NCBI GenBank assembly: GCA_024280395.1
Contig: JAJRQG010000100.1
Coordinates: forward strand, 1-64,000
DNA: 64,000 bases
Direction: 5' to 3'
Origin: Gammaproteobacteria bacterium
GTDB taxonomy: Bacteria; Pseudomonadota; Gammaproteobacteria; Xanthomonadales; Marinicellaceae
Positions 9,068 through 53,080 of this stretch are shown here, piece after piece. Under the pieces are notes generated by a model that saw only the letters and a program-made list of their open reading frames with translations, was not told the origin of the DNA and did no database searches. The position numbers and the translations under genes are program-made. Within the stretch, counting starts at the first letter, position 1; each line of letters begins with the position of its first letter.

Positions 9068-10192
9068 TTATTCAAAACTATTGTTAAAAATGGGATCCCC
9101 CAAAAATGTTGATTCAAAAGCACCAGCATCACATGATGATCCCGTTGGTCTTGGAAATCCAGTTTGATCTGTAGTAACACCTGTGCCGCATTGAGCATCA
9201 CCTGTCGCAGTATCAACATGATCCCAAGCTATACTTCCATTTGTAGTGGCATGAACTTGTTGAAAAGAACCTGAAACCGACCCTAAAGCTAACAACCCAG
9301 GATCTTGCCCAATAATATTATTTGCACCCGTAAAATCACTGACGGTGGTTTCTATAATTGAGTTATTAATACTAAAATCTGTAGCAAAAGCAGAAAAGTC
9401 ATTAGTCGCAGAATTATCAGCAAATATGCTACCTTCAATTGTGGTTGTACCTGAGCCACTAAATATGGCTCCACTTGGGGATCCCATATTATTGGCTACA
9501 GTAATATATCTAATAGTAATATTTTGACCTATATTGGCAAGTGTACCTATACCAGACTCTGCTTGATTCCCGATGTTTCCACTGATGGTTACATTTTCTA
9601 CCAATACATCGTGACCAGTATTGCCATTAATACCTAATCCGGATTGCCTTGCGGCTGTATTTCCACTGATTTCACAGTTTCGAATAGTACCACCTGCAAA
9701 AAAGAAATACACCCCACCTCCCAACGAATCACTAAAACTGTTTATCACTCTTAAGTCTTCAAGAACAGGGGAGCCACCATTTGAAACATATATTCCAGCA
9801 CCAAGATGATTCAAAGTATCACTTAAAGAATTGCCATCGGCAATAGTCAACCCTTTAATGACAACATTGCTGTTAAAAATTCTAAATACACGCGTAGCAT
9901 CATTTCCAGAAATAGTGATTTTTTCTGGCCCAGGCCCCAAAATTTGCAGATCATTAAAATTAATAAATAATTGGCTGGCCAATACAATTGTTCCTGTGGT
10001 CCCGGCATTAAAAACAATGGTATCCGCACCAGCACCAGAAGAAGCACTAATGGCTTCTCTCAAGGTACATTCAGTCACATTACAACCTCCAGAACCTGGG
10101 TCTGCCAGAGAATTAACTGTATAAGTAGCTGAAAGGCTTATCATTGAGCTAAATAATAACGCCACAGTTATAAGAAATTTAATATTTTTCAT
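9068..10192 (-). CDS. CSLREA-domain beta-helix exported protein
   Basis: A 374-residue exported protein. A signal peptide (MKNIKFLITVALLFSSMISLSA) is followed by the CSLREA-type motif CNVTECTLREAISAS near residue 40. Then come parallel beta-helix repeats rich in N, G, I and S (NVVIKGLTIADGN, GGTIRNCEISGN, DVLVENVTISGN, NITIRYITVANN, TTTIEGSIFADN). The C-terminus has TDQTGFPRP..SSCDAGAFES, the choice-of-anchor Q pattern, and the last residues are DPIFNNSFE. I chose the start at 10192 because GGAGGGG lies 5 bp upstream. Probably surface or secreted; substrate unknown. Confidence 0.85.
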   Translation of the reverse strand: MKNIKFLITVALLFSSMISLSATYTVNSLADPGSGGCNVTECTLREAISASSGAGADTIVFNAGTTGTIVLASQLFINFNDLQILGPGPEKITISGNDATRVFRIFNSNVVIKGLTIADGNSLSDTLNHLGAGIYVSNGGSPVLEDLRVINSFSDSLGGGVYFFFAGGTIRNCEISGNTAARQSGLGINGNTGHDVLVENVTISGNIGNQAESGIGTLANIGQNITIRYITVANNMGSPSGAIFSGSGTTTIEGSIFADNSATNDFSAFATDFSINNSIIETTVSDFTGANNIIGQDPGLLALGSVSGSFQQVHATTNGSIAWDHVDTATGDAQCGTGVTTDQTGFPRPTGSSCDAGAFESTFLGDPIFNNSFE

Positions 10193-10244
10193 GAACCCCT
10201 CCTTTACTAATTGAATCATATTATATTTGGTTTTTAATTTACAT

Positions 10245-10285
10245 GTTTGTACTTATGATGCAATTGTTTGTATTTATGATGCAAA
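10245..10285. repeat. Two-copy 20-bp tandem direct repeat
   Basis: TGTTTGTACTTATGATGCAA (10245-10264) is repeated with one change at 10266-10285, a period of 21 bp or two helical turns. It lies 53-93 bp upstream of the CSLREA gene start, where an activator or repressor could bind. The remainder of 10286-10499 holds only the terminator described next. Confidence 0.45.
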
Positions 10286-10411
10286 ACACACCAAACAATA
10301 AGAAAGTTCTTTGAATAAGTACAAACTTAAATACTCACACAGTAAAAAGCCAAACATTATCAATAGAGTTTATAGGCAATAACCAATGATGGGGACTGAG
10401 GGAAATGCTAT

Positions 10412-10446
10412 AAAAAAACCAGATTCCCAAAACCTATCGGGAACCT
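10412..10446 (-). terminator. Probable terminator of the minus-strand secreted-protein gene
   Basis: On the minus strand AGGTTCCC (10446-10439) pairs with GGGAATCT (10428-10421), with one mismatch and a 10-nt loop. GG and seven T (10418-10412) follow. It lies 54 bp after the stop codon at 10500. Confidence 0.55.
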
Positions 10447-10499
10447 AGTTTCAAATTAAATCATGGATCAATTAATATGCTTATTATTAAAGTTGGTTA

Positions 10500-11609
10500 T
10501 TACAAATTACCACACAAAGAAGCCGTGGCTGGCAATAACCGTTGAATGGGTATGGTTCCGCTTAAATTGGCACTTGGGATAGTATATTGAATTGAGCCAC
10601 TACTACAATCATCAAATGAAATATTCAAGGTGCCATCTTGTACCGTTGTTACCGATTGTGGATTATCAAACTTACCACCCGAAGTTAAGAACAATGACAA
10701 ACTAGCACTGGTTCCTGAATAGTTACCTGATGCCGTTAACCACCGATGATTTGGTTCTCCTATGGCTTTTTGGGTAGTCACATCATTATAAGTAAACCAA
10801 GCAATAAACATAAAATTATTCACTGGATCTACATCGATTAAAAAGCCTTGACCGCTAGTGGCGGGTTCAAACCAGCCGCCAGAAAGCCCTTGATTAATCT
10901 GTGTAAAATTTTGTGCAGTCGCAGCAATAACAAATCGAATAGGAAACCCAAGATTGGGTAAAGTACCTGTTCCGTCAACAAAAACCAAACTCGAAGCACC
11001 TGCCACTTGGGCTTTTGGAATCAAAACAGAATCAAAATATGAATTCCCAGAACCTGTAGCAAAATCATTCGATTCAAGAAAAATAGCTGTACCACTTAAT
11101 ACCAATCCTGGTTCTGTTGAAGTCTGTCCATTGATTAAGAAGGAAATGTCTACATTGAGTGAAAATTGTTGTGTACTTGGATTGTAACTGCCGCTATTGA
11201 CCGCAGTGATGGTAGAAGTATATGCACCATGCCCAGGAAATGGTTCGGTACCACTGGTAACATTCAATGCGCTGACAATCGCACCACCGCCATTGGAAAA
11301 GACATTCTTATCAACAGCAATCGTTCCATTAACAAATGTTATGGCATTGAATCCTGTTGGCAAGCTATTTTCGTTGGTAGCTCCTCCAAAATTAAAGGCA
11401 TTGTGTCCATAACTGCTGGTCGAATTGGGTGCTGACCCATTGATTGATGTAAGAGCTCCTGAAACGACATCATCCGCTGTTCCTACTAGGCCATCATTTC
11501 CAGGATAGCTATTTTTAACATCTGAGTCTGTCAGTATTGTCATTTCCAGTTGTTGTGCCAAAACTGTACCAGAAAGTAGTAAAAATATTACAATGATTTT
11601 AGTTTTCAT
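10500..11609 (-). CDS. Secreted protein with a W-x-P/G-x-G module
   Basis: A 369-residue exported protein of unknown function. The signal peptide is MKTKIIVIFLLLSGTVLA. Residues 20-245 are a low-complexity beta-rich region rich in N, S, G and T. The C-terminal ~120 residues form a module starting GLSGGWFEPATSGQGF, continuing with FMFIAWFTYND and RWLTASGNYSG, and ending with CSSGSIQYTIP. The same G-x-W-x-x-P...G-x-G pattern occurs twice in the choice-of-anchor B protein at 13404-15485. The start has AGGAGTGATAAC upstream. It lacks the F-x-x-S-F-E tail. Confidence 0.8.
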   Translation of the reverse strand: MKTKIIVIFLLLSGTVLAQQLEMTILTDSDVKNSYPGNDGLVGTADDVVSGALTSINGSAPNSTSSYGHNAFNFGGATNENSLPTGFNAITFVNGTIAVDKNVFSNGGGAIVSALNVTSGTEPFPGHGAYTSTITAVNSGSYNPSTQQFSLNVDISFLINGQTSTEPGLVLSGTAIFLESNDFATGSGNSYFDSVLIPKAQVAGASSLVFVDGTGTLPNLGFPIRFVIAATAQNFTQINQGLSGGWFEPATSGQGFLIDVDPVNNFMFIAWFTYNDVTTQKAIGEPNHRWLTASGNYSGTSASLSLFLTSGGKFDNPQSVTTVQDGTLNISFDDCSSGSIQYTIPSANLSGTIPIQRLLPATASLCGNL

Positions 11610-43475: not shown

Positions 43476-43560
43476 GCCAGGGTGGCGGAACTGGTAGACG
43501 CGCCGGATTCAAAATCCGGTTTCTTCGGAAGTGCGGGTTCGATTCCCGCTCCTGGTACCA
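43476..43560 (+). tRNA. tRNA-Leu (CAA)
   Basis: An 85-nt gene including CCA. The acceptor stem is GCCAGGG / TCCTGGT-like, the anticodon stem CCGGA / TCCGG with loop TTCAAAA (anticodon CAA), a long variable arm TTTCTTCGGAAGT-like, and T arm GCGGGTTCGATTCCCGC. Its last 18 bases are part of the 25-bp direct repeat that bounds the integrated element, so the gene was rebuilt on integration. Confidence 0.97.
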
Positions 43561-43567
43561 TTTTTTA
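43543..43567 (+). other. Left attachment site (attL)
   Basis: TTCCCGCTCCTGGTACCA plus TTTTTTA spans the tRNA-Leu 3' end and the first bases after it. It is identical over 25 bp to 49841-49865. Confidence 0.85.
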
Positions 43568-44023
43568 ACTTATCCCATTGTTTTATAAGGAAATAATGAA
43601 ACACATCTAAATTTATACCAACAATTGTACCAAAACCCTGTTCAAGAACTAACCAATTAACGTGTATAAAAACCTTCTTTTTAATAATGTGCATAAATTC
43701 AACTAACCTACCCTTTTTTATCGGTGTTACTTTTGTTTCATTTATTCCTCATTCAACCTTTTATTATTATATTTAAATGAAATCAATACAACTGTTCATA
43801 ATAACATCCTAAATTATCAACAATTCAATATCCCATATAACTGTACAATATTACTATATTGCTCTATTTAATAGATGGTGTGTTTTGCATATTAACTACA
43901 TAGCTCTAAAGAATTATATAAATTTACTACTATGGTTGTTTTTATTAGAATATTATAAGTAAATAGATACTTATTCAACAATTATAGGAATGATTTCGAG
44001 TTTGCAAGTCCAATAAAGGGGTG

Positions 44024-44090
44024 GGTGTTTCTATTTTGAGATCCTTGAAGATCTTTATCATGAACACCCTAGACCAAAAATAGGGTTTTA
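44024..44090 (-). repeat. Structured repeat, copy 1
   Basis: Shares blocks of 14 (GGTGTTTCTATTTT), 15 (GAAGATCTTTATCAT) and 16 (CACCCTAGACCAAAAA) identical bases with copy 2 at 45333-45400. On the minus strand it can form ACCCTA / TAGGGT (44086-44081 with 44071-44066). It can instead form GGGTGTT / AACACCC (44069-44063 with 44029-44023) around an inner AGATC / GATCT stem. The two hairpins share GGGT and exclude each other. It lies 45 bp downstream of the SHOCT gene. Confidence 0.6.
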
Positions 44091-44134
44091 GTAGCTTTTC
44101 ATTTATGAAAAAAAATATGAAGTATTATTTAAGA

Positions 44135-44884
44135 TTATGAAAGTAGCTTGCTCTTTAGTTTTAAAAACTCTTCACTTGTTAGCAAGCCTTGTTCTTTTAA
44201 TTTTCCTAGCTTTACAATTTCATCCGCAACAGAATTATCGGATATCTGACTAGGCTTTTCTTCTATCAGCTTTGCTTGAGTTGCTGTGTCTTCAATATCT
44301 GCTTGCTTTATGATAACTTTCATTACACTGTGCCAATGCTGTGCTTGCTCCATAGCTGACCATTCTTGTCCAAAAGGTAAACTAATTTTATAATTTGGAT
44401 TTTTCACCCTATTAACTGTGATTAGTAATTCAGCACTATTTGTTTTATTTGATGATTCTGTTTTTCCTGAAAGTCCTCCAATAATTGCGCCCGCACCTCC
44501 AAATACTAAACCGCCAATAAGCGCACCCCCTAACTGGCTACCCCTTGATGTTTTTGTAATAGTTGTGCCATCTACAAGTATTTCAGATGAAAGAATGTCT
44601 TGGTATGATAATATATCTGCTTCAATAACTCTATCATAATAATGTTCATTTCTCTCATTTTGTTTCAATAGGCAGATTTTTTTTCTGTTTTCATCAATAG
44701 CAATAGCTAAAAGCCCATTTACTTGTACTACCATTTGACTAGGAGAAAAATCAGTAATTTTCATAAATTTATTTTCCATAATTTCAATATTTTCCTTGAA
44801 ACGAGTCTCTATATTAGCATTCATTATAGATCCAACCACTAAAATCCCAACAAAGATTACCGCCACCCATATTAAAAATTCCAC
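44135..44884 (-). CDS. SHOCT-domain membrane protein
   Basis: A 249-residue protein. An N-terminal membrane segment (about residues 4-20) is followed by a soluble beta-rich region, then a glycine-rich hydrophobic stretch near residues 117-135 (LGGALIGGLVFGG and GAIIGGLSG) that could insert in a membrane. The last ~30 residues (VKLGKLKEQGLLTSEEFLKLK) are a SHOCT domain, usually a short oligomerisation module. It is the left-most cargo gene of the element and is flanked by the two structured repeats. Function unknown. Confidence 0.7.
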   Translation of the reverse strand: MEFLIWVAVIFVGILVVGSIMNANIETRFKENIEIMENKFMKITDFSPSQMVVQVNGLLAIAIDENRKKICLLKQNERNEHYYDRVIEADILSYQDILSSEILVDGTTITKTSRGSQLGGALIGGLVFGGAGAIIGGLSGKTESSNKTNSAELLITVNRVKNPNYKISLPFGQEWSAMEQAQHWHSVMKVIIKQADIEDTATQAKLIEEKPSQISDNSVADEIVKLGKLKEQGLLTSEEFLKLKSKLLS

Positions 44885-45702
44885 TTTTATTTCTCCATTA
44901 ACTAGTTATTTTATCTTTATACATTATAACGTATTAGAATTTTCAAATAAATATTTATCTAGCAACTTATCCATATATTATTTTGGTATATAACGTAGCA
45001 ACCATTTCAAAGAAGTTAATAGCCATATAGTACGTTAATAAATTAAACACTAGTTTAATGGGTTTCGTTATATTGTTTATTTAAACTATTCCTGGTCAAT
45101 ACAACCAATAAGAATAAATCTTGGTTAAATGATAAATTCTATTATGACGAAAGTTAACTACTCCATATATTTATGGCTTTGTTTAAATCCTATATTTACT
45201 ATTCATTAAATATTGATTTGAATATTTGATGAATTTGTGTAAAAAGTGTACACATCAGTGTTTTTCTATTCAAAAAACATATGAATCTTAAGGAAAGTGG
45301 ATGTATCTGCTCGTATTTTAGATATGAGGGATGGTGTTTCTATTTTCAAAAAATGGAAGATCTTTATCATATGCACCCTAGACCAAAAACCAGGTTTTTA
45401 CTGTTGTTTCTTTCTGAATGAATAATACGCGATAAATTGAATGGAACCCTAATACTTGAAGTTAATCAAATATTAGGGCGTAGATAAGTACGTAGTTAAA
45501 AGCCTTCTACAATTCCATAGGCTAATTTCTTAAATTGTATTTATTCGTGCCAATACTTCTTTATTTTAATACCTCCCAAAGCTATATTGTCACTTGTTTT
45601 AAGCACTCTTTTACAATATGAATAAGTAGAGTAGAGTACAGTAGAGAAGAATAGTTTAGAAAAGATACATTAATAATGTAAATTTATAATCTCTTTTTTT
45701 TC
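44885..45702. other. Gene-free AT-rich stretch within the element
   Basis: No ORF with a believable start, composition or family pattern lies in this 818-bp interval on either strand. The one clear feature is copy 2 of the structured repeat. The space upstream of the SHOCT gene start (44885 onward) should hold its promoter, but no convincing -35/-10 pair was picked out. Confidence 0.5.
45333..45400 (-). repeat. Structured repeat, copy 2
   Basis: Same orientation as copy 1 and about 1.3 kb away. Where copy 1 forms CCCTA / TAGGG on the minus strand, this copy has CCTGG (45394-45390) and CTAGG (45381-45377), which still pair through one G-U wobble, so the stem is kept while the sequence changes. 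The outer GGTG / CACC is also kept. It lies about 300 bp downstream of the 138-residue island gene. Confidence 0.6.
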
Positions 45703-46119
45703 TCATGGCTTTAAGCTCACTATTTTTGATATCCTAAAATCTTTATCTATAAGTTTTTGTCTACAATCCCTTTCTCCTGCCTTTATTTTGGCTTGCAAAA
45801 CAATACCTTTTAAATTATTTAAGGCAAATCGATCAAATCTCTTAATTGATTCAGTTGGAAAAACCAACCTCCAAAACTTAGGGAAATCATGCCTTTTAGA
45901 GACCTTGAATTTATACTTCCCATTTTTAGATTTAGTATAATATTTGATATTAAACCATTTTGTAAAAATACAGTTTTGATACTCGCTTATTTCTGCTAAT
46001 TTGAAAAACAACATTAAACGTGGTTCACCAAATGAATTTCTAAATTTATAATCATGTAAAACTACTGAATATGAACCATCTTTTATCAATGGTTCATATT
46101 CTAATGATTTACTATTCAT
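45703..46119 (-). CDS. Island-associated hypothetical protein, 138 aa
   Basis: A 138-residue basic protein. The pattern DGSYSVVLHDYKFRN...PRLMLFFKLAEISEYQNC...KWFNIKYY, then FKVSKRHDFPKFWRLVFP and a closing basic segment, resembles short conserved proteins near AlpA genes in proteobacterial genomic islands. I cannot name a domain. It overlaps the upstream 71-residue ORF by 4 bp and is the last of five minus-strand genes. Confidence 0.65.
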   Translation of the reverse strand: MNSKSLEYEPLIKDGSYSVVLHDYKFRNSFGEPRLMLFFKLAEISEYQNCIFTKWFNIKYYTKSKNGKYKFKVSKRHDFPKFWRLVFPTESIKRFDRFALNNLKGIVLQAKIKAGERDCRQKLIDKDFRISKIVSLKP

Positions 46120-46331
46120 GTTATCAAACCATGATTGAGTATATCTAACGCTTTCAGACTATCGGCACAAATACCACATTGTTCAAGTAGCTTAGAAAAT
46201 CGGGTATTGCCTGTAGTTTTCAAGCTCAAACAATTACCAATAACCAAAGATGTTTCAATTTCAAAATACTTAGAATCTATTAACTGATAAAGATTAAAAT
46301 TAAAGTTGCTGTGAATTAATATTTTATTCAT
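46116..46331 (-). CDS. Hypothetical island protein, 71 aa
   Basis: A 71-residue protein with no family that I recognise. It contains three Cys (NCLSL, QCGICADS) and a C-terminal helix. It overlaps both neighbours (8 bp upstream, 4 bp downstream), which supports it as a real gene translated by coupling. Confidence 0.55.
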   Translation of the reverse strand: MNKILIHSNFNFNLYQLIDSKYFEIETSLVIGNCLSLKTTGNTRFSKLLEQCGICADSLKALDILNHGLIT

Positions 46332-46590
46332 CGTTAGCTACCACAAAATAATTAGCTACTTTGTGCCATGTACCTTGTGCCGTTACATCAAGAACCATTA
46401 TTTTATCAATGTTCATATTCTCAATGTTTTTAAGTTCCATTATTCTAGGTGCTGGACTTTGAATATGTAAAACTTCACGGGCATAGATAGTTGTACAACT
46501 GCCATGTTCTCTAATTTGTTTCTTTAATCGTTGCCTTTGTGCCTGTGCAGTATTAGAATTACGCACAGGCGATTTAGTTAAATCATTCAT
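46324..46590 (-). CDS. Small helix-turn-helix protein
   Basis: An 88-residue protein. AQAQRQRLKKQIREHGSCTT followed by IYAREVLHIQSPAPRIMELK fits the HTH_39-type helix-turn-helix seen in phage and island genes, where the segment REVLHIQSPAPRIMEL is the recognition region. I chose the ATG at 46590 (MNDLTKSPVRN), which overlaps the upstream gene by 8 bp; the longer ORF reaching 46722 has an unlikely N-terminus. Possibly a DNA-binding regulator. Confidence 0.65.
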   Translation of the reverse strand: MNDLTKSPVRNSNTAQAQRQRLKKQIREHGSCTTIYAREVLHIQSPAPRIMELKNIENMNIDKIMVLDVTAQGTWHKVANYFVVANDE

Positions 46591-46882
46591 GATTAATTTT
46601 CTCGCTTGTTTGTTGAATAGACAAATTAGAAACCGCAACGCCCGCCAAAGTGTTTGCGGTTTCATTGTTTTTGTAATGTCTGAAATTCCACAATGAACAA
46701 TCAGTAATTGTACAAAGGGCAATTTCTTTTCTTACGCCTTTACTTTCGCTTTGAGTCAAACCACCACCGCAACAATCCCAACATTGAGCGTTCATAGCGT
46801 GTTTGATATGAGTTAAGCGAGTTGTTTTACTAGAACCGCTATTAGGGTTCTTTTGTAAAGCTAGATTTTGATTATTAGGCAT
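46583..46882 (-). CDS. Cysteine-rich island protein, probable zinc ribbon
   Basis: A 99-residue protein. NAQCWDCCGGGLT and, 20 residues on, IALCTITDCSLWNFR give a C-x-x-C...C-x4-C set, a zinc-ribbon arrangement common in phage and P4-like island proteins. GAGGAA 8 bp upstream supports the ATG at 46882, which overlaps the AlpA gene by 8 bp. Function unknown. Confidence 0.65.
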   Translation of the reverse strand: MPNNQNLALQKNPNSGSSKTTRLTHIKHAMNAQCWDCCGGGLTQSESKGVRKEIALCTITDCSLWNFRHYKNNETANTLAGVAVSNLSIQQTSEKINHE

Positions 46883-47075
46883 TATCACGTTCCTCAATTT
46901 GTTGATTCAAATATGCTTGAATCTCATTATCGGGAAAGCCCACGGCTCTTGAAGAAATTTTGATAGGCTTTTTTAACTTGCCTTGAAGTACCATTCTCCA
47001 TATGGTCGAATCTGATACATTAAGCATTTTTGCAACCACCTTAGGGCGGTGGACTTTATTTATATTTACTGTCAT
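46875..47075 (-). CDS. AlpA-family regulator / excisionase
   Basis: A 66-residue MerR-like winged-helix protein: HRPKVVAKMLNVSDSTIWRM is the helix-turn-helix, then QGKLKKPIKISSRAVGFPDN forms the wing, as in AlpA. In P4-type elements AlpA controls integrase and excision. GGAG 6 bp upstream of the ATG at 47075 supports the start; 47105 adds 10 residues with no Shine-Dalgarno. First gene of the small-gene operon. Confidence 0.85.
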   Translation of the reverse strand: MTVNINKVHRPKVVAKMLNVSDSTIWRMVLQGKLKKPIKISSRAVGFPDNEIQAYLNQQIEERDNA

Positions 47076-47196
47076 ACGTACTCCAATTATTAAAAGTACG
47101 TCCATTCTATCGCAGTAAGTGTATTATGTAATTAACTCAGTTTTTGATGTTTTCACCTTAAGGTTAATAATAGAAAATGTACCTTAAGGTTGAAAA

Positions 47197-48330
47197 TCAA
47201 TCATTATTCATAATACTGTCATAAGAGGGGATGTCTAAATGATAAAAAGAATTCACCCAAAACTTACTTAACCATTTTTTAGCAGCAGGCTTTATAGAGT
47301 CATTCATTTTACTATGAGAAATAATTATATCTTTTTCTTTTTTATCTTTATATAAGTGGTTCAGATACCAGTCACTTGTTGATTCTTGGTTGTTTTCAAT
47401 ATTCCAAATGTATAAATCTAAGTACTGAACTACTCTTTGTTCAATTAAAGTTTTAATTTCTCTAATCCCTCCATTTTTCTTATTTTTCTCTTTAATATCT
47501 GTTACTAATCCTAGTTCAGGGTTATCTTTTCTTTTATCATTTACAATTTTTAAAACATTTTTGATTAATATTTCATCTGGTTGACTTATATCAATAGTGG
47601 TTAATATGAAATTTTTTGATTCTTCAGGTAAATGCTTGTAAAAAACCGTATCTAGAAATAATTCTTTTAATAATACAAGCTCTGCTTCCAAGCTAAAGCC
47701 GAACCAAAAATTATTTGACATTAGCTCATAATCTTTTCTTGGGATATCTTTCTCTTTGTAATCTAAGCAAATTTCTTCTACTACTTCTTTTAATACTTTT
47801 TTATCTAGTTTATCGTTGTTATAAACTGAAGGTTCATTCAATGCTTGTTCATATATTTCCAAAACTTTTCTTGGCACAAAAAAATGACTTTCAATGTGGT
47901 GAGATTGAAGAGGATTTTGATAATCATCATTTTTATCTAAAAATATGTTTTGTAAAATATTTGATTTTGATAAATACATCTGTTCATAAGCTAAAGTTAA
48001 TTTTGTAGATTTATTTATATCATAATCTGGGTTTTCAGTTCCCACTACTATCTCACCTAAACCATTTATACTTTCTTTAAATAAACACTCTAACCTAGTA
48101 GCATCTAATAGTATAGTTTTAAGAATTTGCTCTTTTTCATTCAAATCAATATGAAAAGTACAGACCACTGAGTCTTCAATTATTATACTTTCAGGGTGTT
48201 TTAATCTGTCTAACTGCAATTTACGAATTTCAATTTCATAGCAAATATTTTTGGAACAATAGCCATTTAAATACTTATACTTTTCTAAATTAACCCAATC
48301 TGGAGTATCTCCAAAATAAAACTCTTTCAT
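47197..48330 (-). CDS. Hypothetical element protein, possibly DUF6387-like
   Basis: A 377-residue charged, mostly helical protein without signal or membrane segments. The N-terminus (FGDTPDWVNLEKYKYLNGYC, then RKLQLDRLKHPES) resembles the opening of DUF6387-type proteins, which often sit next to integrases in genomic islands; this is from memory and weak. No nuclease, protease or ATPase motif was found. GGAAGG 6 bp upstream of the ATG at 48330 supports that start over a GTG at 48336. It lies between integrase and alpA and is the element's largest unassigned gene. Confidence 0.55.
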   Translation of the reverse strand: MKEFYFGDTPDWVNLEKYKYLNGYCSKNICYEIEIRKLQLDRLKHPESIIIEDSVVCTFHIDLNEKEQILKTILLDATRLECLFKESINGLGEIVVGTENPDYDINKSTKLTLAYEQMYLSKSNILQNIFLDKNDDYQNPLQSHHIESHFFVPRKVLEIYEQALNEPSVYNNDKLDKKVLKEVVEEICLDYKEKDIPRKDYELMSNNFWFGFSLEAELVLLKELFLDTVFYKHLPEESKNFILTTIDISQPDEILIKNVLKIVNDKRKDNPELGLVTDIKEKNKKNGGIREIKTLIEQRVVQYLDLYIWNIENNQESTSDWYLNHLYKDKKEKDIIISHSKMNDSIKPAAKKWLSKFWVNSFYHLDIPSYDSIMNND

Positions 48331-48463
48331 AACCACCCTTCCCAGTGATAACTTTCAAAGTAGAAATCAAGCCAAAGCAAATGAAAGTGTTTTGCGGTTC
48401 GGTTATGAGCCTATGGCTTGATAGTGTTTATATTGTAGCGGATTTATTTAATTTACAATAGTC

Positions 48464-49684
48464 TTAATTTTTAGATTGTTTACTGTTTATTGGGATTATT
48501 TGACCGTTGCAATTTTCAATAAATGAACTCCAGTGATTCATCATTTTTGTTCTATCGATCAAATACTCAGCCTTGTTATAGGTGGCTTCAACCTTACTGC
48601 CTGTTTCATGGCTTAATTGCTTTTCTACAACCTGTCTTTTATATCCCAATTCTCTAAGTGTTGTACTGGCAAGGTGTCTAAAGCCGTGAACCGTGGTTTT
48701 ACCTTTCCATCCCAACCGATACAAAGCAAAGAGCATTGTATTTTCTGAAAAGGGTTTTAATTCAGGTTGCTTAGTAGATGCAAAGATGTATTTATATTGC
48801 CCTGTAATAGGCTGTAAGGACTTTAATACTTCAATAACCTTATCACTCATAGGCACCACATGTTCACGTTTCTTTTTCATCAATTCCATTGGCACAATTA
48901 ACAAACGGTTTTCAAAATCAACACAATCCCACGTTAAAAAACGAATCTCACTTGTGCGTAAAAAAGTATGTAATGCCAAAGTCAAACCCGCTTTAGTTGT
49001 TGGTTCACTAATTAAAGATTCGATACTTGTTACTAATTCAGGTAATTGACTCGCTTTGATGTGATGGAAATTTTTTGGCACATACTCTTTGAGTAAAACT
49101 TCAATTCCTTCACATGGATTTGTTTTAATCAAACCTTTAGCTTTAGCAAAAATAAATATCTTACTACACCTACTTCTTATTTTATTAAGCTGTTCTAGTG
49201 AACCACGTTTTTCAATAATCTTTAAGACTTGAGTAATTTTAGTGGATTTGATGTTTTTTATTGGCTTGCTACCAATGTGATGAAAAATATTATCCTCTAA
49301 TGAACGCCACACATTTTGAGCGTGTTTTTCTGACCATTTGTTTTTTTTAATTTCAAACCAAGAACGTGCGATACTTTCAAATGACAATGTACCATTAGCA
49401 ATGGCTTTTTCCTTTTGTCTTTTTTTGCCAGGGTCTTTACCATCTGCAACCATACATTTAGCTTTAAAGGCTCTATTACGTGCCTGTGCAAGTGAAACAT
49501 AAGGATAGACACCCAATGCTAAGGTTTTCTGTTGATTGTTGAAACGATAGCTGAAACGCCAATATTTTGAACCGTTTGGATGAACCGTAAGATTCAAACC
49601 TTTACCATCTGTTTTCTTGTATATTTTATCAGTAGGTTTTAAAGCAATAATTTCAAAGTCATTCAGCTCTTCTTTTTTAGTCAT
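48464..49684 (-). CDS. P4-type tyrosine integrase
   Basis: A 406-residue site-specific recombinase. The DUF4102-type N-terminal arm domain (DGKGLNLTVHPNGSKYWRFS, LGVYPYVSLAQAR) precedes a SAM-like core-binding domain. The catalytic set is Arg in HTFLRTSEIRFLTW (R243), HGFRH (H333, R336), QLSHETG (H359) and the tyrosine in EATYNKAEYL (Y369). It reads inward from attR, 157 bp away. The start at 49684 is preferred to 49696; neither has a strong Shine-Dalgarno. Intact. Confidence 0.93.
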   Translation of the reverse strand: MTKKEELNDFEIIALKPTDKIYKKTDGKGLNLTVHPNGSKYWRFSYRFNNQQKTLALGVYPYVSLAQARNRAFKAKCMVADGKDPGKKRQKEKAIANGTLSFESIARSWFEIKKNKWSEKHAQNVWRSLEDNIFHHIGSKPIKNIKSTKITQVLKIIEKRGSLEQLNKIRSRCSKIFIFAKAKGLIKTNPCEGIEVLLKEYVPKNFHHIKASQLPELVTSIESLISEPTTKAGLTLALHTFLRTSEIRFLTWDCVDFENRLLIVPMELMKKKREHVVPMSDKVIEVLKSLQPITGQYKYIFASTKQPELKPFSENTMLFALYRLGWKGKTTVHGFRHLASTTLRELGYKRQVVEKQLSHETGSKVEATYNKAEYLIDRTKMMNHWSSFIENCNGQIIPINSKQSKN

Positions 49685-49840
49685 GATAAACACCATTCAA
49701 GGTTATACCAACGATTGTACCAACAATAATAGTGCAATGTAAAGAACTCTTTTGAAATCCTATGATAACAACAATCATATATATAAAGCCATACAAGGTA
49801 TTTATGATGTTTTATGAAAGCTAGAAAACTCTAGTTTAGG

Positions 49841-49865
49841 TTCCCGCTCCTGGTACCATTTTTTA
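49841..49865 (+). other. Right attachment site (attR)
   Basis: The second copy of the 25-bp sequence at the tRNA-Leu 3' end. The tRNA body is absent upstream, as expected for the distal junction. Between the integrase start and here (49685-49840) no gene is seen. Confidence 0.85.
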
Positions 49866-49953
49866 GCTGATATCACACCAATTAGTTTCCAATCTCAATC
49901 CTAAAAACACTCATCTATGGTATATAGAATTGTATTTTATTAGAATTGACCTT

Positions 49954-50066
49954 GAAAAACATTTCTGGAAAATATTTGACTTCACCCATCCTTGGGTTTT
50001 GCCCTTCGGGTTAACATGAAAATACTTTCCAGAAGTATTTTTCACGTAAGCCTTCATGGATGAAGG
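49954..50066. repeat. Long imperfect palindrome with nested hairpins
   Basis: Arms of 24 bp (49954-49977 and 50020-50043, three mismatches) enclose short hairpins. A perfect CCTTCAT-GG-ATGAAGG hairpin follows at 50051-50066. It has no ORF and lies 90 bp outside attR. The rest of 49866-50228 contains nothing that I can support. It may be a non-autonomous element or a structured RNA. Confidence 0.45.
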
Positions 50067-50228: not shown

Positions 50229-50516
50229 TTACGATTTTGCACTAACACTCAATTTCAATCCAATATTATCCAATACCTTAAACAAAGTGTTGTAAGTAGG
50301 GTTGCCATTTTCACTAAAAGTTCGGTATAAACTTTCACGAGCCAGTCCAGTTTCTTTGGCTAATTTGCCAATGCCACCCATAGAGTCAATGATTTCACGA
50401 ATGGCAAGCATAAGTACGCCTTCATCATTTTCTGCCATGATCGCTTTTAAATATTCTGCTCTATCTTCATTGGTTTTTAAATAGTCGCTTGTTTTAAATG
50501 CTTTAGCTTTGTTCAT
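50229..50516 (-). CDS. HigA-like antitoxin
   Basis: A 95-residue antitoxin of the putative addiction-module type. KTSDYLKTNEDRAEYLKAIM leads to an HTH (GGIGKLAKETGLARESLYRTF). GNPTYNTLFKVLDNIGLKLSV closes it. GGAG 8 bp upstream supports the ATG at 50516, which overlaps the toxin by 14 bp. Antitoxin follows toxin, the order seen in higBA-type loci. Expected to repress its own promoter. Confidence 0.85.
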   Translation of the reverse strand: MNKAKAFKTSDYLKTNEDRAEYLKAIMAENDEGVLMLAIREIIDSMGGIGKLAKETGLARESLYRTFSENGNPTYNTLFKVLDNIGLKLSVSAKS

Positions 50517-50820
50517 TGTAATCACTCCAATATTGCCTGGCTTTTTTGATGTCATTGTTTTGTGTGGACTTGTCACCACCGCATAATAATAAAATTATTT
50601 TCTTTCCAGTCCAACCATAATAAACCCGATAACCTTTACCAACTGATATTTTCAATTCTCTTACTCCTTCGCCAACTGACCGCCAATGACCTTCATTGCC
50701 TAATTGCAATCTATTCAGCCTTACCAGTATTTGAGCCTTTGCTCTTAGGTCTTTTAAACCATCTAACCAAATATCAAAAGGACACCAGTCATGCTTTGCT
50801 ACATATTTGACAATCTCCAT
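50503..50820 (-). CDS. RelE/HigB-family toxin
   Basis: A 105-residue addiction-module killer protein (Gp49-like). Visible are FDIWLDGLKDLRAKAQILVR, GHWRSVGEGVRELKI, GKGYRVYYGWTGKKIILLL and GGDKSTQNNDIKKARQYW, in family order, with the usual basic catalytic residues. Such toxins cut mRNA on the ribosome. First gene of the pair. It lies outside the attR of the integrated element by about 360 bp. Confidence 0.85.
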   Translation of the reverse strand: MEIVKYVAKHDWCPFDIWLDGLKDLRAKAQILVRLNRLQLGNEGHWRSVGEGVRELKISVGKGYRVYYGWTGKKIILLLCGGDKSTQNNDIKKARQYWSDYNEQS

Positions 50821-51056
50821 CATTCGAGCATTGTAACTTATAAGCTACATTCAATCAAGTGCAAATTTTGTTAATTGAAAATTACAAAAAGATACCTAGA
50901 AGATATTCTTATTCAAACAACTTGATATTCCCCCACTAAACTTAACACCCTTCTTTTTCTAAAATTATAGAAAAGTGCCGAATACATGACTTTTATCCCA
51001 TTCTATTTTATATCAATATTATGTATAATTAGTTAGGTGCATAACTTTTCGGAATT

Positions 51057-51567: not shown

Positions 51568-51692
51568 ACTTCTCCTGCAACATCTCCAATATACTAGAAA
51601 AATCTTTCATGCCTTTGCCATTGTATTTGTGCTTCATAAAGTTGTCCAGCGGCCAATCCCAGAAGAATTGGGCTTTTGGATTTATTGGCGAT
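51568..51692 (-). pseudogene. Duplicated 3' end of the hydroxyisobutyrate dehydrogenase gene
   Basis: This 125-bp stretch is a diverged copy of the last bases of the gene ending at 52193. On the minus strand it still reads KGMKDFSSILEMLQEK and a stop, against GGKDFSSILEMLKEK in the intact gene; upstream of that, small indels break the frame. The lipoprotein gene lies between the two copies. Confidence 0.75.
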
Positions 51693-51714
51693 TTTTCGTA
51701 CGTAACACTCCGAT

Positions 51715-52192: not shown

Positions 52193-53080
52193 TCACTTCT
52201 CCTTCAACATCTCCAATATACTAGAAAAATCTTTACCACCCATACCATTATATTTGTGCATTTCATAAAGCTGTCCTGCTGCCGATCCTAGAGGGATGGG
52301 GCTTTTTGATTTACTGGCAAGTTCTTGGGCTAATCCTAGGTCTTTGCACATTAAATTGGTCATAAATCCACCTTGGTAATCATTACTAGATGGGACATTG
52401 GGCATGACATCGGGATAAGGGTTGTAAACTTGTAGCGACCAATTGTTACCAGAGCTGGCTTTCATGATTTCGGATAATACACCTGCATCTAAACCTTGTC
52501 GTGTTCCCATGTTTAATGCTTCAGCTGTGCCAATCATGTGTATGGCCAATAACATGTTGTTGCAAATTTTGGCGACTTGTCCTGCACCAGAACTGCCCGC
52601 ATGAAAGATATTCTTGCCCATGGCTTCTAGTATGGGTTTGGCCTTTTCAAAATCTTCGGGCTCTCCACCACAGATGAATGTCAAAGTGCCTGCAATCGCG
52701 GCTGCGGTTCCACCTGAAACTGGTGCATCAACCATGCTGATGCCTTTGACTTTGCAGGCTGTTGCGACGTGACGGGCATCATCTGCAGCAATGGTTGATG
52801 AATCGATCACCAATACATCTTTAGATATGTGGTTGATTAAACCGTTCTTTCCGGTAAACAAGGATTTGACAATTGAACCGTTGGGCAACATTGAAATAAC
52901 AACATTGGCATTAGTCAGTGCCGAAATAGCCGAATCTGCTTTTTTTGCACCCGATTGAACGGCTTTTGCCACGACTTCTTTATTCAAGTCATATACGGTG
53001 AGTTTGTGCCCGGCTTTGATTAAATTTTCTGCCATGGGTCCACCCATGTTGCCCAAGCCAATAAATGCGATATTTGTCAT
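52193..53080 (-). CDS. mmsB: 3-Hydroxyisobutyrate dehydrogenase
   Basis: A 295-residue beta-hydroxyacid dehydrogenase, the valine-catabolism type. The NAD site is IAFIGLGNMGGPMAENLIKAG. DAPVSGGTAAAIAGTL is the substrate-binding signature, and the catalytic lysine is in GAGQVAKICNNMLLAIHM. The C-terminal helix ends FSSILEMLKEK. Other valine-catabolism genes are not in the window. It could act on a related hydroxyacid. Confidence 0.88.
   Translation of the reverse strand: MTNIAFIGLGNMGGPMAENLIKAGHKLTVYDLNKEVVAKAVQSGAKKADSAISALTNANVVISMLPNGSIVKSLFTGKNGLINHISKDVLVIDSSTIAADDARHVATACKVKGISMVDAPVSGGTAAAIAGTLTFICGGEPEDFEKAKPILEAMGKNIFHAGSSGAGQVAKICNNMLLAIHMIGTAEALNMGTRQGLDAGVLSEIMKASSGNNWSLQVYNPYPDVMPNVPSSNDYQGGFMTNLMCKDLGLAQELASKSKSPIPLGSAAGQLYEMHKYNGMGGKDFSSILEMLKEK

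Follow-up and report, generated by a model that had tools for sequence, protein, structure and literature searches.

Two similar repeats lie on either side of a single gene in a tRNA-integrated island of the 64,000-nucleotide stretch of DNA analysed here (the window), and the question is what these repeats are. The initial annotation took them to be a covarying functional RNA or a recombination site that marks a cargo cassette. The results given below lead to another assignment, in which the repeats are probably an old local direct duplication (~70-100 bp) in the cargo slot of the island and a separate element, named S, is a putative cis DNA-processing site.

Organisation of the tRNA-Leu island

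The island is 6.3 kb long and is bounded by a tRNA-Leu gene and a repeat of the tRNA end. Its features are listed below (window coordinates, strand where applicable, description and source).

43476-43560, plus: tRNA-Leu (CAA), integration target (ARAGORN; Rfam RF00005)
43538-43573, plus: att core, left island end (tRNA end), 36-nt repeat 89% identical to 49836-49871
43593-43633, plus: integrase arm-like repeat, left, putative arm, 76% over 41 nt to 49683-49723
44019-44090, plus: repeat copy 1 (self-comparison of the window, genome search)
44135-44884, minus: cargo gene, 249 aa, SHOCT-like C-terminus (ORF; Pfam; PHROG)
45328-45399, plus: repeat copy 2 (self-comparison of the window, genome search)
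45446-45479: hairpin 1 of S, 47 bases right of copy 2, with a 14-bp minus-strand stem and the loop TTAACT
45501-45523: possible hairpin 2 of S (AGCC/GGCT), weak (75% of cells paired, no covariation)
45621-45684: TACTC-repeat box, inverted relative to siblings
45703-46119, minus: h138, predicted OB-fold protein (structure model and fold comparison)
46116-46331, minus: h71, small backbone protein (ORF; similar ORFs adjoin h138 in L134, L136 and L137, by eye)
46324-46722, minus: winged-helix HTH_39 protein (Pfam 4.9e-8)
46583-46897, minus: h104, cysteine-containing small protein (no Pfam family; relatives in L045 and L048)
46875-47105, minus: AlpA-type regulator/excisionase (Pfam Phage_AlpA 1.9e-5; PHROG 66 1.4e-9)
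47197-48336, minus: DUF6387 protein adjoining the integrase (Pfam 3.6e-13)
48464-49696, minus: tyrosine integrase (Pfam)
49683-49723, plus: integrase arm-like repeat, right, putative arm (self-comparison of the window)
49836-49871, plus: att core, right island end (self-comparison of the window)

From right to left, the backbone comprises the integrase, DUF6387, AlpA, h104, HTH_39, h71 and h138 genes, and between h138 and the left island end is the slot, which contains S, the SHOCT gene and both repeats. The motif TATACCAACAATTGTACCAA is present, with changes, inside both island ends. Relatives of the integrase (E <= 1e-40) were found in 19 of the 33 family genomes, its own genome counted; the XerA/integron integrase model scored 53 bits, below its cut-off of 220. 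No transfer gene was named among the larger island ORFs (Pfam, NCBIfam, PADLOC, PHROGs), and no scanned island protein matched a primase. Short tandem units of ~6 nt other than TACTC were seen by eye at the place of the TACTC box in distant islands.

The SHOCT match of the cargo protein (Pfam E 4e-5, 23.6 bits) lies below the cut-off of 27. The protein also matches PHROG 27819 (4.5e-27) and PHROG 888 (1.5e-24), two phage families without assigned function, and no relative was found in the 32 other family genomes, in plasmids, in viral contigs or (at E <= 1e-8) in 397 other genomes of the order.

Several further features lie to the right of the right att core. A dispersed repeat R (49871-49957), tried as a relative of the two copies and rejected as unrelated, is present in 8 of the 11 genus genomes (1-7 each), is often paired ~110-150 nt apart, and is also present immediately past the att core of L040 and L039. 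It is followed by an inverted repeat (49953-50044; 25-nt arms, 88% complementary, 42 nt apart) and by a Gp49/HI1420-type gene pair (50229-50823) of the type carried as cargo by three siblings, which is possibly the remains of an older neighbouring island. Finally, 51568-51694 and 52195-52323 form a partial duplication, in two pieces 81-86% identical, involving the 3' end of a gene (52193-53080).

Sibling islands and the cargo slot

Related islands are designated by locus number, and each was counted once. A search with the slot DNA in 11 genus genomes matched in 4 of them, its own included, and pointed to three islands that share the backbone. Seven loci came from a scan with h138; L137 and L139 had not been met before, and two, L143 and L138, are from Marinicella. 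L110 was added through the model of S. The slot genes between the att end and the shared backbone vary. They encode a Gp49-type toxin and an antitoxin-like partner in L134, L135 and L136, and other genes in L137, L139, L143, L048 and L110 (the names lipoprotein-like, SIR2-like and dehydrogenase were assigned by eye). The slot is thus a cargo slot, as proposed in the initial annotation, but the structured element at its edge is S and not the repeats.

Other repeated sequences occur in these slots. Inverted copies of a repeat family, Q, lie on either side of the toxin-antitoxin cargo in L134 (1405-1449 and 3156-3200) and L135 (1023-1137 and 2096-2160), with related stretches in L136, L045, L046, L047, L111 and L119. 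Non-coding arrays of short motifs (CCTTTTTATAGTGTCCGAAAA, AACGTACTGAAAA) were seen in L046 (8690-9070), L048 (8280-8660), L049 (6690-6910), L111 (9320-9980) and L136 (3780-4030), and ACACAGAACTGACTAA-like units spaced every 30-40 nt form arrays in L117 (3440-3830) and L128 (340-700). An island with a related integrase, L042, encodes a type IV coupling protein (9183-10517; T4SS-DNA_transf, E 3e-47).

Sequence and folding of the repeat pair

In register, 57 of the 72 bases of copies 1 and 2 are identical, with identical runs of 16, 15 and 14 that confirm the blocks of these lengths reported earlier for two same-orientation copies; the blocks GGTGTTTCTATTTT, GAAGATCTTTATCAT and CACCCTAGACCAAAAA are the same in both. 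Within the window's own 3.77-Mb genome the copies match each other at 82% over 66 nt (E 4.8e-12), and the BLAST alignment reaches 101 nt at 76%. They are in direct orientation and, as had also been noted, bracket only the SHOCT gene, the sole gene between them being that at 44135-44884 on the minus strand. Duplication of a larger unit was rejected, the flanking sequence and genes of the two copies being unlike. Mismatches between the copies are clustered (matched by 1.7% of 100,000 shuffles for the sum of squared runs, and by 0.16% of 100,000 for the three longest runs), so that the conserved blocks may be under constraint. Template switching is a conceivable origin of the clustered changes. 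A terminator scan gave no transcription terminator at the repeats.

The case for a functional RNA had rested in part on a stem, CCCTA/TAGGG on the minus strand of copy 1, that was thought to become CCTGG/CTAGG in copy 2 by compensating changes. This covariation does not exist, since the 3' arm TAGGG is unchanged in both copies and CCTGG/CTAGG arises when this same arm pairs with a shift of one base. With the pairs aligned as in copy 1, two of the five are invariant, two are changed on one side and one is broken in copy 2, none being changed on both sides. The hairpin GGGTGTT/AACACCC, proposed as a competing fold, has four invariant pairs out of seven and three broken in copy 2, again with no double change (0/7). 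Copy 1 can form both named stems; in copy 2, 3/7 pairs of the second stem are lost. RNAalifold on both copies returned no double change on the minus strand and one on the plus strand, in a helix other than the named stems; a single such change from only two sequences proves nothing.

Folding energies were compared with those of shuffled sequences. For copy 1, 17/300 (plus strand) and 10/300 (minus strand) shuffles folded at least as well, and for copy 2, 84/300 and 263/300; in a second run with 200 shuffles, the corresponding numbers folding as well or better were 23 and 7 for copy 1 and 133 and 178 for copy 2. Copy 1 is thus slightly better than shuffles on both strands, and copy 2 is no better on either. 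At the gathering score, Rfam 15 matched only tRNAs in the window; three matches at a lax threshold, all weak, to eukaryotic families and far below family scores, were discarded.

Search for further copies of the repeat

No third copy was detected in the window's own genome (E <= 0.001) or, by DNA search, in about 60 related genomes. Among 398 genomes of the order, only chance-level matches accompanied the two copies: 14 matches outside the window (E 0.016-0.1) were rejected, 8 after examination in genomic context and the rest as alignments only. A model built on the two sequences (R1), run on the 33 family genomes, scored the copies at 89.9 and 88.7 bits and the next match at 17.4; the weak matches (E <= 0.5 in 26/33 genomes, none above 17.4 bits) were likewise rejected, after viewing eight alignments (two of them island loci) and examining four in context. 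The 31 island loci held no further copy (best score 13.5 bits), the 8 near sibling islands had no match at E <= 10, and no copy was found in plasmids and phages or, with exact repeat patterns, in viral and genome contig collections. Single blocks allowing up to 3 mismatches are about equally frequent in the window and in shuffles.

The outcome that had been named beforehand as refuting the initial annotation was thus obtained, no further copy being found in related islands, and with no double change in the named stems the view of the repeats as a covarying RNA family is not supported. It is highly probable that the repeats are specific to this island and have no conserved RNA fold.

Covariation and conservation of element S

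Element S (45430-45534) starts thirty bases right of copy 2, between the cargo and h138. A hairpin is found between the cargo and h138 in all nine near islands (that of the window, L134, L135, L136, L137, L139, L143, L048 and L110). In the alignment of 8 islands, 8/12 pairs of the main stem are changed on both sides and 87.4% of the cells are paired. For the whole 16-pair structure, 0/500 shuffles reach the covariation score and 1/500 reaches the number of double-change pairs, one of the shuffle controls ignoring the relatedness of the islands. Sliding the structure by 1-3 columns lowered the covariation score, and in a comparison of six islands the conservation of the sequence rises sharply at hairpin 1.

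The model of S (R2) found one copy in each of 7 of the 33 family genomes and, with stricter filters, in the same 7 of 398 order genomes, all seven among those with a close h138; outside h138 islands it found nothing in the 33 family and 398 order genomes. Eight of the nine near islands are rows of the model and match by construction, L110 being the one independent member. One S sequence had no blastn match in plasmids and phages, two exact S patterns were absent from viral contigs, and Rfam gave no match in L134-L136. Literature searches on AlpA/satellite islands, Marinicella islands, oriT, DUF669 and satellite packaging returned no description of the S hairpin.

The possible kinship of the repeats with S was also considered. 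The S model does not match the repeats; with filters off, it scores no more than 4.0 bits in an overlap with copy 1 and finds nothing on copy 2. Ranked over the window against the S 3' half of other islands, the minus-strand TCTAGGGTG comes 2nd in copy 1 and 3rd in copy 2, although the S 3'-half profile scores both copies at chance (<=1.9 bits). The best match between the copies and distant S stretches (E 0.015 over 27 nt) was rejected, its coordinates lying outside the hairpin, and the idea that the repeats are the counterpart of the sibling hairpin was dropped, the true counterpart S being present in the window.

Distant islands, terminase genes and the h138 protein

Genes similar to h138 were found in 16 of 398 order genomes, its own included; of the 19 sites, 7 are near and 12 distant. 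The distant islands keep a hairpin after h138 with other stem sequences. In a scan of the 350 nt past the h138 stop, on the gene's strand, the 50-nt window of lowest energy starts 179-287 nt past the stop in 17 of the 18 islands with enough sequence; the exception, L160, still has a 9-bp stem round TTAACA ~200 nt past the stop. Stems of 8-14 bp closing on a TTAAC or TTCAC loop occur in 6/12 islands, the window's included, and are absent in the other six; each is reached by 0-1 of 2000 shuffles that preserve base composition only. In 14/18 islands the gene's strand gives the lower hairpin energy, a figure taken from the unbiased window scan and not from the hairpin finder, which allows G-T pairs and is biased towards that strand.

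A terminase small subunit (terS) is encoded one or two genes beyond S in 8 of the 12 distant islands, as identified by PHROG 309 in L159, L160 and L164 (E 8e-43 to 6e-46), by Pfam GP3_package in L162, L166 and L169 (E 4e-19 to 2e-23), and by PHROG 83 in L163 and L167 (E 4e-21 and 9e-19). As for the remaining four, L168 is cut off by the end of its contig, and in L158/L122, L161 and L165 the genes that follow gave no terminase match. The eight distant terS proteins were used to search the nine near islands, some of them cut by contig ends, and no terminase was found; the sole hit covers 53 residues in L048 (11122-11241), within the place of the AlpA gene.

The structure model of h138 (mean pLDDT 75.7) resembles an OB fold. 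Its best solved match is PrgE of plasmid pCF10 (Foldseek E 0.015; Z 7.7, rmsd 3.5, 106 aligned), at 11-12% sequence identity and in a score range that may reflect only a common arrangement; several viral models, named DUF669 or single-stranded DNA binding, match at E < 1e-3. These comparisons are suggestive only of h138 being an OB-fold protein.

Interpretation of the repeats

The repeats are best read as the duplication stated at the outset, and the chances that this duplication was a by-product of cargo gain or exchange, of which the repeats would be the leftover, are evenly balanced. Efficient recombination requires a minimum length of identity; the longest identical run being 16 bp, the present copies have probably diverged too far for it, and they are not a demonstrable recombination site. 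Three observations count against a simple duplication, namely the clustering of the mismatches, the folding of copy 1 above shuffles and the ranks of TCTAGGGTG for the S 3' half. The clustering would suit paired binding sites for an island protein (a regulator, an integrase helper or a packaging protein), possibly with looping round the gene, since three blocks of 14-16 bp split by changed spacers resemble footprints. The repeats were however not found in the 8 near siblings, which carry the same kinds of regulator gene, and single blocks with up to 3 mismatches are no commoner in the window than in shuffles, which leaves this explanation unlikely. IS200/IS605-like elements have subterminal hairpins in direct repeat, and a pair of copies enclosing a single gene in a variable slot, like the Q copies flanking toxin-antitoxin cargo in L134 and L135, might be viewed as the ends of a mobile SHOCT cassette moved by an enzyme encoded elsewhere. 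Yet the genome has a single such unit, none was found in the order genomes, family genomes and near siblings searched, the copies have diverged by 18% over the core, and the Q copies are inverted and not direct, so that a mobile cassette is improbable. Two copies of a functional small RNA able to fold in alternative ways would account for both named stems in copy 1 and its modest gain over shuffles; with no double changes in these stems, 3/7 pairs of the second lost in copy 2, folding of copy 2 at shuffle level, no Rfam match and no relatives, the probability of this reading is very low.

Interpretation of element S

For S, a cis DNA-processing site is slightly favoured over an RNA regulator. 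Island DNA would be opened or cut at S, for packaging in the first place and as a replication or transfer origin in the second; S would act with the adjoining predicted OB-fold protein and, in distant islands, also with the terminase small subunit beyond it. The segment from S to the left att end is exchangeable cargo. Packaging sites often adjoin terS, and the packaging reading derives from the S hairpin lying beside terS in distant islands. That S is specifically a packaging site is a tentative proposal, against which count the nine near islands in which no terS was found, the strand lean of the energies and the lack of covariation in hairpin 2. The lower hairpin energy on one strand (14/18) would suit a folded RNA that controls the next gene, either as the tail of the backbone transcript or as part of that gene's leader; in distant islands the gene would be terS, which the hairpin precedes in 8/12. 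S is nevertheless kept in the nine near islands, where terS was not found, and the genes beyond it often run in the opposite direction (L137, L139, L143, L048), and an RNA role is accordingly rather doubtful. An oriT at which a conjugative helper's relaxase would act, h138 being the accessory protein with a predicted OB fold, has in its favour that PrgE of the conjugative plasmid pCF10 is the best solved match of h138 and that OB-fold proteins act in the relaxosome of a conjugative element, according to the available part of PMC12614216. It is quite improbable, the S model having found nothing beyond the h138 islands (33 + 398 genomes) and blastn of one S nothing in plasmids, and the neighbouring genes in relatives being those of terminase.

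The processing site can be extended, speculatively and with low confidence, to a whole undescribed class of packaging or DNA-processing signal in a satellite-like island family. In such a class, the stem letters of S would be free to change while the fold, the place and partly the TTAAC-type loop are kept; islands devoid of terS would keep S for uptake by the terminase of a helper phage; and the repeats would mark a past change of cargo in the slot between S and att.

Comparison with known systems

Some PICI-type satellites carry terS, as do 8/12 distant h138 islands, and none was found in the island of the window. The island has the attributes by which IntY/AlpA tRNA islands are recognised (tyrosine integrase, AlpA, tRNA site, flanking repeats, no autonomous transfer genes). 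From the available portions of PMC12595487, IntY/AlpA islands lie at tmRNA or tRNA genes, one is transduced by a jumbo phage, and they share with the present island a tyrosine integrase, AlpA, flanking direct repeats, varied cargo and the lack of recognised transfer genes; they differ by a shared region of ~18 kb, YqaJ and Gp2-like genes and the tmRNA site, against 6.3 kb and tRNA-Leu here. As far as the consulted part of PMC10803314 describes them, PICMI (minimal marine phage satellites) are alike in being small, with an integrase, AlpA, a gene adjoining the integrase and few others, the near islands being similarly terS-less. Unlike PICMI, the present island has no primase match, lies at tRNA-Leu and not at fis, and has a predicted OB-fold gene and S; its distant relatives carry terS, not found in PICMI115 (same source). 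PrgE and other OB-fold proteins of mobile elements (PMC11137577 and PMC12614216, as available) are comparable in the predicted fold of h138, which shares 11-12% sequence identity with PrgE. No hairpin like S is described for IntY/AlpA islands in the portions of PMC12595487 at hand, nor in those of PMC12614216 and PMC10803314.

The present case shows that two diverged repeats in one genome can mimic covariation. Small islands that carry an integrase, AlpA and cargo and lack transfer genes are widespread (PMC12595487, as available). The covarying site at the border of backbone and cargo, which in relatives lies near terminase genes, is a concrete sequence for a deletion test.
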